DNA from: Rhizoclosmatium globosum
Taxonomy: Eukaryota; Chytridiomycota; Chytridiomycetes; Chytridiales; Chytriomycetaceae
Direction of reading: 5' to 3'
Assembly: GCA_002104985.1 (NCBI GenBank)
Contig: MCGO01000050.1
Span: 62,001 to 126,000, forward strand
Length of the DNA stretch: 64,000 bases
The position numbers and the translations under genes were made by a program. Of this stretch, positions 57,188 through 61,168 are shown piece by piece (position 1 is the stretch's first letter; the number at the start of each line of letters is the position of its first letter). The notes beneath the pieces were generated by a model. The model saw only the letters and a list, made by a program, of their open reading frames with translations. It ran no database searches and had not been told where the DNA came from.

Positions 57188-57508
57188 GGCGTTTTTGGCT
57201 GGTTTTTTGAGGTTTCTTTGTGGAAGCAAGAAACGAACAGCAACAGCAACAGCAAGAGCTATTTCAGAGGAAGAGAAAGGGGAAGAGAGAAAATCGAATG
57301 CGATCAAGAATAATGGAAGAATGAATGAGTATCTCTATTGATTACTGGAACCGTTATACTGTATTTAACATTTTAGAAGAACATTAAAAAAAAACAAAAG
57401 GTAAAAGAAAAAAACATACCTGTAAAAAATAATTAGAATTATGCCATAAGGAAAGCAAGGCCATACCAAATTTCTTTGTATTGTTAATCAGGAATGTATC
57501 CAGGGCTG
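57188..57508. other. 3' flank of the Fanzor gene / promoter of the Sel1-like gene
   Basis: About 320 bp with no protein gene. It contains a purine-rich A tract (57384-57413) and an AT-rich section (57417-57480). In TnpB systems the guide (omega) RNA comes from the 3' end of the nuclease gene, so this flank is where a Fanzor-associated RNA would be sought. I see no clear terminal inverted repeat here. Confidence 0.4.
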
Positions 57509-60500
57509 TTAAATGAAAGCTGCAGGTCGACCACCAGTATGATTGTAATGAAACAGCAAGTGGCGAATGTTGCATGCAGCTTGAATATCTTTGTCCACAA
57601 TCTTAGCAACAAATGTTAGTGCTGGTACCAGTCACAAGCATACATACAGTAGGGGGTCCTGGAATGAGTGGGCACTCAACAAGACCATAAACTGAACTCT
57701 GGATGTTAGTAAGATCAGGGCATTGAACAAAGGGATGCATTGGTTGTTTGTCATCATCAATGCAGTATTTTCTCCAGTGAAGATCCTGAAACTTGCGTTT
57801 CTTGTGGGGGCATCTAAGAATAGGACGTCGAACCTAGTCCAACATTAATGTAAGACTTACTTTGTTGATTACTTACTGTCACAACTGGTGGATATTGGAA
57901 CACACCTCCTGCCTCATAGCCAGCACTGAGACGATGGGACCGCTGTGAAGTCAAATGCTCATCAATAACAAACACAAAGTGCTCATGAGCAGCCTTTTCT
58001 CTGATTCTCTGTGTGAAAAACACATATTTAGTATTGCCAACCATTGCGTTAAACTGACATTGTTGGGAACAGGTGCCCATGGTCTCTGGTGATTCCAAGA
58101 TCCATCGCCATAAGCAAAATAGACTGGTGCAACAGGAAAAGCTGGAATATTATTCAAGCGGCGTGTTCGACGGCGGAGTTTTCTTGCTCCAGGAACAATC
58201 CTGCCTTGCATACTGTTCCAATCAGTGTCTGTCATGCGCCCAGCCATACGATTGATGAGAGCTTGTTCAGCCCGCTGGTGTTTCATACGACTGCTCTGCT
58301 TCCACTTTAGATGCTGGGGACGAGAATACTCTTGCAACAAGAATTCTGACTGGAAATGCTTGACCATCCAGGTCCATTGACACCAATGACCCAGTGTACG
58401 TTGACCAATAACACGTGGAGAATTTTGAGCAAGGACATCATATGCAAAGTTGATGCGGTGATCATTGTCTCGGAACACCTCTTCCCTCTTTTCAGAGAGC
58501 TTAGAACCATTGATTTGACGCATATGACCATGGGAAACCTGAACAACGTGGTCATGAATAATCTGTCGTGATGGAGGATGTGCAGGCGGAGGTACTGGAA
58601 CTGGAGCAACAGCAGCATTGTTGATTTGGAGCTGGATATCACTATTGACACAAGTTACAACATTCCTGATACCTAAATAGGTAAAATAAATATTAGAAGC
58701 TGATTTAGTAAGCCAAACACAGAAATCAAACCTGGGTCAACACTAATAACATTGTGAGGATCCAAGATTCCAGCTTGAATTTGATTCACAATTCCCATAT
58801 TGTTTATGTGATGATCCACACGCACCATTCCACGACCATTTATCATGAATTGGTTATAGTTATAATTTTGTGGGAGTGAATTTGCATCATCAGTCCAACT
58901 TTTGTGAGGAACTCTGTTGGCATTTGCTGCAAGATTGTTCTGAACAAAGGCTTGTCTGGTATTCAGAGTCCATGAAAAGCTTCTGCCATCAGTTTGAAGA
59001 TAATATGAAGCTAGGGTTAGAATTATTCAATGCAATAAAGTTTTACATACAATCAACATCATTCCTCAAGTGGCGACTCCAGCGAACAGATTCAACTCGA
59101 AAAAACAGTCCAATTATGCCACGATGTTCAGCTCGAGTCCCTCCATGACCATTGTATCTTCCAACCCCATTTGGTGGACTAATTATTCCCAATGCAGGTA
59201 CAATGATGTGCTGGAAATGTGCAGCAGCAGCTACAAGTGAAGGTGGAAAGTTAACTCCACCTGGTGGTTGAGGAAGTGGAACAGCAAGAGGCCCCAAAAG
59301 GTCCCTCAGTCGTGGCATAAAATATTGACATAGAACACGATAGTCTATCCCACAAAAGACTGCTTGAGCCGTGGTAGCATTGGTTGGAAGTGGTGCAAGA
59401 GGAAAATAAGCTTCACTTCCAAGGAGTGCCATATCTGGGCGAATAAAACTGTTTCAATGGTAGTATGTTTGAAATTAGCAAATGAAGGCTTGACAGATAA
59501 AAACTTACTCTCTGGTATAAGCCAAAATATTATTGCCCATTCTTGACATTGCCCTAATAAGATTCATTTCAAAGTGTGGGCCACGCTGAATGTTATTGAA
59601 GGGCATGGCAACAAGAAACTGTCTGTGATGGAGAAGAAATGCAACAATATTGTTGGTCACTGCCTGCGGAACTGCTACAGGAAGTGCAAGTGGGGCACCA
59701 AATGGTGGGGTCAGGTAATTGTATATTGCTGTCTTTGCAGTTGCCTTGATAACAGCGGTAGGTTGGTATCCATGCAGGAAGCAATGAAAGTTGAAAACCT
59801 GAATTATGTTGTAAGATTTAAAGTAAATTTCAGACAAGATCAACAAACCTCCTCAGCCAGCTTGCCTAAATTGGCAATGAATCTTCGAGCAAGTGCATTT
59901 TCAAAGTCTGTACGCAATCGTTTGGCTTCAATGGCAATAACTTGCTCCCATTCATAGCTGGGACAGTTAAAGAGGGGAACCATTCGAAGACCAGGTTGGA
60001 TGGGTTGTCCATTCTGAAAACCATTGTTGTCACAACTAAATGGATGATGAAAGTTTTGGAAAGTTTCCAACAAGTAATGTCTTGTGACAGAACGGCGGGT
60101 GTTTTGGTGTGCCTGAAGGGCTGCACCAACTGGAAGGATGTAGGGTGTGCCAACAGGATTGCCAGGAAGTACAAAACCAATTGGAAGTGGGGCATGATAA
60201 TTATTGGCGAGCAGATTTCCAGAAGCATACTTGAGTGCAAATTGGAAGAAGGATTCTGAAAACTCAATGTCAAGATGATCGTGACCTAATTTTAAGTCCC
60301 AATGAATTTAAACGATATTAATTTGAGCTGTTAAATACCAGTTGGGTTGCGCTCTAGGTGAAGGTTGATTGCAAGCATGGCATCGGAGCGTAGGAGGGAC
60401 ACATTTCTTGCAAACTCTTGTAAGAGTGGCCCCATTACACAACGTAGTTCTGGTCGAGTAGCTTGTCTTGCTCCAACATGGCGAGTGCGATGGAAGTTGT

Positions 60501-60510
60501 TTTGAGCCAT
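57509..60510 (-). CDS. Fanzor (eukaryotic TnpB-like RNA-guided DNA endonuclease)
   Basis: Start MAQNNFHRTRHVGARQATRP at 60510. Introns fall near 60277-60339, 59790-59850, 59453-59510, 59009-59047, 58673-58731, 58010-58058, 57836-57873 and 57602-57645; every join I tested stays open. The N-terminal ~480 residues match no motif I can name, then YYLQTDGRSFSW and the split RuvC domain: RuvC-I VISVDPGIRNVVT (Asp codon 58736-58738), AYGDGSW (near 58108), the DEHLTSQ block (Glu codon 57958-57960, equivalent to the Fanzor DEY.TS motif) and RuvC-III VDKDIQAACNI (Asp codon 57587-57589), ending TGGRPAAFI. This block order is specific to the TnpB/Fanzor family. About 830 residues. The zinc-ribbon segment is atypical. 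Native function is unproven; known Fanzors cut DNA under guidance of an omega RNA and travel in transposons. An upstream in-frame Met at 60570 would add a hydrophobic leader. Confidence 0.85.
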
Positions 60511-60599
60511 ATGAATGACAGAAGTGGCGACCAAAAGAATGAGAAGAATAGATAGGAGGCAAGGCCTCATCAGTTGGCTCGTGTTTTTTTCTCGAATGC

Positions 60600-60763
60600 A
60601 ATTTTCACACTGTTATCTTTTTTATCTGATCTCATTTTCCGTTGGGGTTTACCCGGAGTTTTTCCGGCTTTCTTCCTCTCAGGAACAGGATCTGTACCAG
60701 GGGTCGAACCTAGAACCTCTTGATTCATAGTCGAGCGCGGTAACCATTTGGCCATTCGCCCAT
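60600..60763 (-). repeat. tRNA-derived SINE-like sequence
   Basis: Read on the minus strand from 60763: GGGCGAATGGCCAAATGG, an A-box-like D arm (TGGCCAAATGG), an anticodon-arm-like stem (CTCGA / TCAAG around CTATGAA) and a convincing T arm CTAGG-TTCGACC-CCTGG containing a near-consensus B box (GGTTCGACCCC). The 3' acceptor strand does not pair with the 5' end and no CCA-proximal stem is present, so it is not a functional tRNA. It runs on into an unrelated A-rich body containing AAGCCGGAAAAACTCCGG (a short stem). This is the structure of a tRNA-derived SINE or tRNA pseudogene. It lies directly upstream of the Fanzor start, in its promoter or 5' UTR; the SINE's 3' limit is approximate. Confidence 0.65.
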
Positions 60764-60768
60764 GACAT

Positions 60769-60989
60769 GTAACGGAATATGCTCCAATTCTCCTTCCGAC
60801 TCTTTCCGGCTCCTTCGGAATCTACCGGCTCTTATCTTCTCATTTCAAATTGACAACACACAATTTACCTTTCTTTTCTAGAACATTCTTTACTTTATTT
60901 ACGACTATATAAGCAGTTCCTTTTTCATATCAATACAATAGAATCTTCTTCTTCCGCTATCTTCCGCAATCCGACCCTATTCCCTATCA
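60769..60989 (+). mobile_element. Solo LTR of a retrotransposon, 221 bp, with 5-bp target-site duplication
   Basis: Begins TGTAACGGAATATGCTCC and ends CCCTATTCCCTATCA, i.e. with the canonical TG...CA ends. TGACA is repeated exactly on both sides (60764-60768 and 60990-60994), a perfect 5-bp duplication as produced by Ty1/copia and Ty3/gypsy integrases. Inside is ACTATATAAGCAG (about 60903-60915), a TATA box at the place expected for an LTR promoter on the plus strand. No internal gag-pol lies next to it, so this is a solo LTR left by recombination. It is inserted at the 5' edge of the tRNA-derived sequence. Confidence 0.8.
60905..60912 (+). promoter_or_regulatory. TATA box of the LTR promoter
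   Basis: TATATAAG within the LTR, followed about 25-35 bp downstream by CAATACAATAG, plausible start region. Plus-strand transcription from here would run toward the rotatin-like gene (start 61169). Confidence 0.55.
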
Positions 60990-61168
60990 TGACATGTGGT
61001 CAAGATCGGCAAAGAAAAACCGAAGATGAATGTTCTTCGTCTCTGAAAATAATAATAGGTTATTTATTCCTTTACAAAAAGAGAGGAAGAAGAAACGAAT
61101 AAAGGCTATTTGATTTTATTCTGAAATTTCAGTTCATTCCTCTTTTCATTCGGACAGAAAACAGAGGA

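Follow-up and report, generated by a model that had tools for sequence, protein, structure and literature searches.

In the aquatic chytrid Rhizoclosmatium globosum, the gene that an earlier note, made from the sequence alone, had read as an intact Fanzor nuclease gene within a dense housekeeping region belongs to a multicopy mobile family, a non-autonomous DNA transposon with a single Fanzor-type gene. The family spread recently, its copies being ~99% identical, and is likely best described as a recently spread Fanzor1-type transposon family that lacks the zinc finger, has a candidate transposase donor and adjoins a predicted CCTA motif. The window (the whole 64,000-nucleotide stretch of DNA analyzed, on contig C367 of the 56.9-Mb R. 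globosum assembly) thus holds one insertion of a multicopy transposon, which the description of the surroundings as a dense housekeeping region had overlooked. Besides the multicopy transposon itself, the loss of the zinc finger and a 222-bp solo-LTR-like insert in the 5’ region go beyond what had been noted earlier.

Gene model and copy family

The spliced reading frame comprises 867 codons and runs open from 60510 to 57509 on the minus strand through nine exons, with the same ends as the earlier model and all joins in frame, in agreement with the earlier reading of an intact gene split by eight introns. The introns are 40–60 nt each and seven of them end in TAG or CAG, while the last (57647-57602) runs from a GTATGT donor to an AAG acceptor. 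P0001, an NCBI hypothetical protein of R. globosum (783 aa) from the copy of the Fanzor-type family on C24, has residues identical to the spliced window model, bar one Ser/Gly, through joins 1–5 to residue 725, from which point on the C24 copy is deleted. P0001 is itself a database gene model, and joins 6–8 are drawn from the window sequence and its own copies alone. Accordingly, the joins of exons 1 (60339..60510), 2 (59849..60285), 3 (59509..59798), 4 (59051..59448) and 5 (58732..59010), all on the minus strand as are the remaining exons, agree with P0001, with RuvC-I and D524 of VDPG at the end of exon 5, and exon 6 (58059..58672) agrees with it as far as the deletion. Exon 7 (57877..58008) carries E747 of VIDEHLTS, exon 8 (57648..57833) the region of the lost zinc finger, and exon 9 with the stop (57509..57601) RuvC-III with D841 of DKDIQAACN. 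An upstream in-frame Met (60568..60570, minus strand) is the start of P0001, lying 20 codons upstream and adding a hydrophobic 20 aa. This in-frame N-terminal extension (window 60511-60570) reads MRPCLLSILLILLVATSVIH, and one of the ghost elements described below begins similarly, with MKKLIVLTFLHVSN. A Pfam search of two reading frames flanking the window element returned no match.

A protein search of the organism's own genome yielded 127 exon matches, from which 18 places with near-identical exon 6 were chosen and taken with their flanks. Sixteen of the 17 other copies are 98.9–99.7% identical to the window copy across its 3.4 kb, and one (L048) is internally deleted. When the same joins are applied, the frame is open in 15 of the 17 undeleted copies, the window copy among them; L035 has a stop in frame and L043 a frameshift, while L047 is two codons short but still scored as open, and in L032 the exons are open and 21 nt are gone from the 3’ end of intron 7. 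Seven indel events fall within the gene across the 17 copies (without L048), five of them intronic (401 nt in total) and two exonic (2,601 nt in total), one of the latter in frame (P ~7e-4). Substitutions between copies (without L043 and L048) are nonsynonymous in 15 of 23 cases versus 75% expected (P 0.2), which is not significantly off neutral. The earlier view that the gene is not a dead relic is therefore borne out by the kept frame but not by the substitutions. Diverged copies were uninformative on coding constraint, since the five inspected were decayed relics with frame-breaking indels. In L035 (on C334), five substitutions are clustered in the equivalent of window 59123-59219, perhaps through gene conversion from a diverged copy.

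Motifs and relatives of the protein

As had been claimed, the RuvC-I Asp (D524), the Glu (E747) and the RuvC-III Asp (D841) are all present and in order. A DPG together with a Glu six residues before a CxxC has been put forward as the molecular fingerprint of Fanzors (PMC10711439), and here RuvC-I carries DPG (VDPG, D524) and the Glu of E747-HLTSQR-SHRL lies six residues ahead of the zinc-finger site, in the alternative-Glu position, with the CxxC replaced by SHRL. The C4 zinc finger present in many TnpBs and Fanzors (PMC10711439) is absent by eye: SHRL takes the place of the first CxxC, and the second retains no more than one Cys; an alternative last intron that might restore it was sought, and no donor tried by eye gives CxxC. 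An older Fanzor/TnpB motif, D-X(125,275)-[TS][TS]-XX-[C4]-X(5,50)-RD (PMC3627910), is matched by the protein except for the zinc finger and a Lys in place of Arg: the [TS][TS] corresponds to T750-S751, separated from the Asp by 225 residues and so within the range of 125–275, and RuvC-III reads KD (K840 D841) followed by ..A..N. A pattern composed after the sequence was seen, DPG...E..[TS][TS]...[RK]D..A..N at the observed spacings, occurred in 1 of 150,000 protein shuffles, and in 6 when D-hydrophobic-G was allowed.

The profile search that the earlier note had named in advance as a possible refutation gave no significant TnpB/Fanzor match. The best Pfam match, OrfB_IS605 at the RuvC-I motif, has an E-value of 0.73 and is under the cut-off, the TnpB models in the profile searches being bacterial; nothing significant was returned from NCBIfam or PHROGs. 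A PDB search gave an unrelated match only (0.049) and none for the RuvC half, though PpFz1 is in that library, and searches of protein collections recovered P0001 alone, a copy from the same genome. No relatives were found in the viral contigs searched. Alignments with fragments of PpFz1 and L79 score no better than shuffles, two of three falling at the expected place. With no significant relative besides its own copy, membership amongst the Fanzors rests on motifs and element anatomy, on which basis the protein is likely a very divergent Fanzor-type RuvC nuclease. The earlier assignment to the Fanzor nucleases is thus favored by the DPG/alternative-Glu fingerprint (PMC10711439) and by an OMEGA-like element anatomy, while no significant profile or sequence match speaks for it. 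The protein may represent a Fanzor lineage without the zinc finger and without recognizable relatives.

Fanzor structures have been treated previously (PMC11423790). Compared by eye with PpFz1 of Parasitella parasitica (PDB 9cf0), the protein shares the IDE..TS block and the GL..C before the RuvC-III Asp, but there is no significant alignment and PpFz1 retains a CPKC. ISDra2 TnpB cuts by a RuvC mechanism with a guide taken from past the right end, and by analogy both would be expected here; unlike ISDra2 TnpB, the protein has DPG and the alternative Glu, and TnpB profiles give no significant match to it. A literature search, with most subscription papers outside its coverage, returned no report of a Fanzor from Rhizoclosmatium, and for Fanzors with pogo/Tigger no paper mentioning Fanzor was among the matches listed.

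Element ends, CCTA flank and a transposase group

Each element is ~3.5 kb long, has imperfect 30-bp inverted repeats at its ends and an apparent duplication of the target TA, and contains a tRNA-Arg-like piece along with one gene. The window copy lies between two TA at 57359..61055 (minus strand), and the 18 copies are similar up to these ends while their flanks are unrelated; the common sequence starts with CCTA/CTATTATTTTCAG and stops with ATACAG/TA. When the left terminal repeat (61028..61057, minus strand) and the inverted right repeat (57357..57386, minus strand), both 30 bp including the TA, were compared in copy L036, 19 of 30 positions including the TA were identical and GAAGAACATT was equally spaced in both, a match equaled by 1 in 20,000 30-mer pairs drawn at random from the element. 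The window copy differs by one change in the left repeat region. A pattern derived from the ends has 53 matches in the genome versus 0 for the reversed control.

Within the 5’ region, the window copy carries the solo-LTR-like insert (60768..60989, minus strand; TG...CA with a 5-bp duplication TGTCA), unique to it among the 18. A degenerate segment derived from tRNA-Arg(ACG) occupies 60694..60765 (minus strand), based on ~71 nt that are about 92% identical to many places in the genome, the one examined being tRNA-Arg(acg), and on an Rfam tRNA match at 60696-60755 of 25.7 bits, under the cut-off of 29. Its presumed A and B boxes were assigned by eye against the consensus, and a role as Pol III promoter is a guess. 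The segment directly follows the left end that is common with a group of transposase elements (see below), and it also adjoins a relic at C367:234668.

Downstream of the stop, 152 nt of non-coding sequence (57357..57508, minus strand) end with the right-hand repeat and its TA and have 32 matches in the genome. This segment is kept in ghost elements of ~835 bp that have the same 3’ ~200 bp with another left end and another interior, the latter without a match to the Fanzor element. Ghosts occur at three full-length places (L049, L051 and L054) and at five further, diverged ghost-like places. Most of the first 100 columns of the segment are invariant in three ghosts and two relics, and such conservation next to an unrelated interior fits a guide-RNA scaffold, which from position and conservation is what the 3’ ~150 nt are predicted to be; folding of the segment was no better than that of shuffles. 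The flank past the right end (57337..57356, minus strand) varies between copies and is the predicted guide, in role and length by analogy with SpuFz1. Part of the segment (window 57359-57466, minus strand) has an acceptor-donor-acceptor look (TTTTTTACAG/GTATGT ... AATACAG/TA) with two candidate introns, the right end of the element resembling a 3’ splice site.

On the left, the flank CCTA (61056..61059, minus strand) is made up of CC and the duplicated target TA. All copies except L035 (17 of 18) have CC in front of the left TA, whereas 159 of 5,086 window TA on both strands (3.1%) are CCTA (binomial P 5e-25). The right flank is unconserved, and since GG follows the right TA in 0 of 18 copies the CC signal is one-sided. 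All three full-length ghosts adjoin CCTA. Copy L044 is flanked by a tandem repeat, of which by eye an intact unit has GATGATTAACCTATCA where the insertion has GATGATTAACCTA, the element and TCA; the unit without the element reads CCTATCA, so that the CC pre-existed in the target and the TA was duplicated. This one paralogous unit, read by eye, is the direct evidence for both the TA duplication and the empty site, and a search for the joined flanks of the 18 copies within the retrieved copy DNA gave no convincing empty site besides L044. CCTA is predicted to be the target-adjacent motif of the nuclease.

The genome contains 29 matches to PF03184 (DDE_1), which we take to be the mark of pogo-type transposases. 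Eight of these are alike in profile extent (12-177, 516 bp), and all eight have the same left end as the Fanzor element 1,065–1,078 bp upstream in the same orientation (C201:387484, C399:340407, C410:462227, C119:8330, C334:83915, C89:51286, C40:5266 and C201:223090), the group having been singled out by match extents and spacing jointly. Inspection by eye placed no further DDE_1 match within a few kb on the inner side of any of the 35 left ends; the match at C334:95217 was left uncounted, as the variant end (C334:94195) ~1 kb away from it points in the other direction. Of the 32 genomic matches to the 3’ segment, none is close to any of the eight. Based on mismatch counts with versus without CC, CC is present in 0 of 8 DDE_1 copies versus 17 of 18 Fanzor copies (Fisher P 6e-6), with one of the two bases in the C40 copy and at least one base differing in the C119 copy. 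Among the remaining nine of the 35 left ends, of unassigned kind, two have CC (C367:303256 and C410:440694). The common left end, in a group known from profile matches and end positions, leads us to infer that the DDE_1 element is the transposase donor for the Fanzor element. Transposases with PF13358 were rejected as partner, as by eye 0 of 19 matches lie at Fanzor-element ends, and a DDE_1 gene beside copy L032 was taken as a mere neighbor. The latter is a separate open DDE_1 frame of 504 aa (L032:6641-8152), 58 bp past the right end of the Fanzor copy.

This anatomy has precedents. Fanzor-only elements have been described that have TA duplications and share their terminal repeats with transposase-bearing elements, e.g., PUl-4 (PMC3627910), and Spu-1 of the chytrid Spizellomyces punctatus is described with 30-nt repeats, a CA upstream of the left one and ghost loci that also have CA (PMC10432273). 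The same source gives CATA as the measured TAM of SpuFz1 and a 75-nt right-end region as its scaffold, and its authors state that no transposase flanked by Spu-1 repeats was found (PMC10432273). The R. globosum element resembles Spu-1/SpuFz1 (Fanzor1) in being a multicopy Fanzor-only element of a chytrid with ~30-nt inverted repeats, a TA duplication, ghost elements and a conserved dinucleotide ahead of the left repeat (PMC3627910, PMC10432273). It differs in having CC rather than CA, eight introns rather than a single ORF and 866 rather than 633 aa. In addition, it lacks the C4 zinc finger, contains a tRNA-Arg-like segment and has its left end in common with a transposase group. Amongst Mariner-type Fanzor1 elements such as PUl-4 and PGv-1, PUl-4 is likewise Fanzor-only, with terminal repeats identical to those of Mariner elements and a TA duplication (PMC3627910); unlike these elements with their Mariner transposases, R. 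globosum has a DDE_1 Pfam match, and the sharing is known for the left end alone.

Proposed retention beside CCTA and alternative explanations

A joint explanation that we consider probable is that of a non-autonomous transposon encoding only a divergent Fanzor1-type nuclease, moved by the DDE_1 transposase in trans and retained through RNA-guided cutting beside CCTA. The pogo-type DDE_1 transposase would insert the element into TA sites, and the 3’ ~150 nt would be transcribed as guide-RNA scaffold, continuing into the right flank, such that the guide of each copy would be the chromosome sequence just beyond its right end. Excision would then restore a site of CCTA plus the right-flank sequence, i.e., target-adjacent motif plus target; the nuclease would cut this empty site, and repair from the sister copy would reinstate the element. 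Landings beside CCTA would be kept by such cut-and-repair and other landings lost. Retention next to CCTA would explain why CC is found at the Fanzor and ghost copies and not at the transposase copies sharing the Fanzor left end. The mechanism predicts CC only alongside the guide RNA, for which the counts are 17/18 for the Fanzor copies, 3/3 for the ghosts and 0/8 for the DDE_1 copies, while the two CC among the nine unassigned left ends are unexplained by it. The fuller claim is evenly balanced between true and false: that elements with this left end adjoin CCTA only when they carry the Fanzor gene (or, in ghosts, its right-end RNA segment), so that an RNA-guided nuclease would decide through the motif which insertions persist, and that this nuclease represents a zinc-finger-less lineage without recognizable relatives.

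The CC could instead reflect the target preference of the transposase that moves a Fanzor-type element, with no part in the nuclease motif, which we consider unlikely. Another transposase subfamily could mobilize the Fanzor element, and a search for the exact right end of that element gave no match at the DDE_1 copies. If the transposase itself preferred CCTA, the signal would be expected neither to be one-sided, as it is with no GG after the right TA, nor to be missing from the DDE_1 copies that have this left end, barring a different transposase for the Fanzor element; furthermore, SpuFz1 has the same layout, and there CA plus TA is the measured TAM (PMC10432273). A degenerate Fanzor that kept the RuvC triad, lost the zinc finger and binds RNA-guided targets without efficient cutting would agree with the replacement of the first CxxC by SHRL and at most one Cys in the second (by eye versus PpFz1), but D, E and D are all kept, the frame survives in 15 of 17 undeleted copies and the CC bias would require an active retention mechanism, making such a protein quite improbable. 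Finally, the absence of both a zinc finger and a significant match in any library searched would be in keeping with some other kind of transposon accessory protein, unrelated to Fanzor/TnpB and with coincidental motifs. Against this stand the rarity of the motif order and spacing in shuffles (for a pattern set afterwards) and the CCTA, ghost and right-end anatomy like that of Spu-1, and we regard it as very improbable.

With a transposase group and a Fanzor element that have the same left end in one genome, retention by RNA-guided cutting becomes directly testable. If the fuller claim is true, R. globosum would offer a natural experiment that separates nuclease from transposase within one genome, and a Fanzor without a zinc finger or detectable relatives would mean that whole lineages may escape profile searches. 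The contrast in CCTA between the Fanzor copies and their transposase relatives hints at how such cutters hold jumping genes in place.
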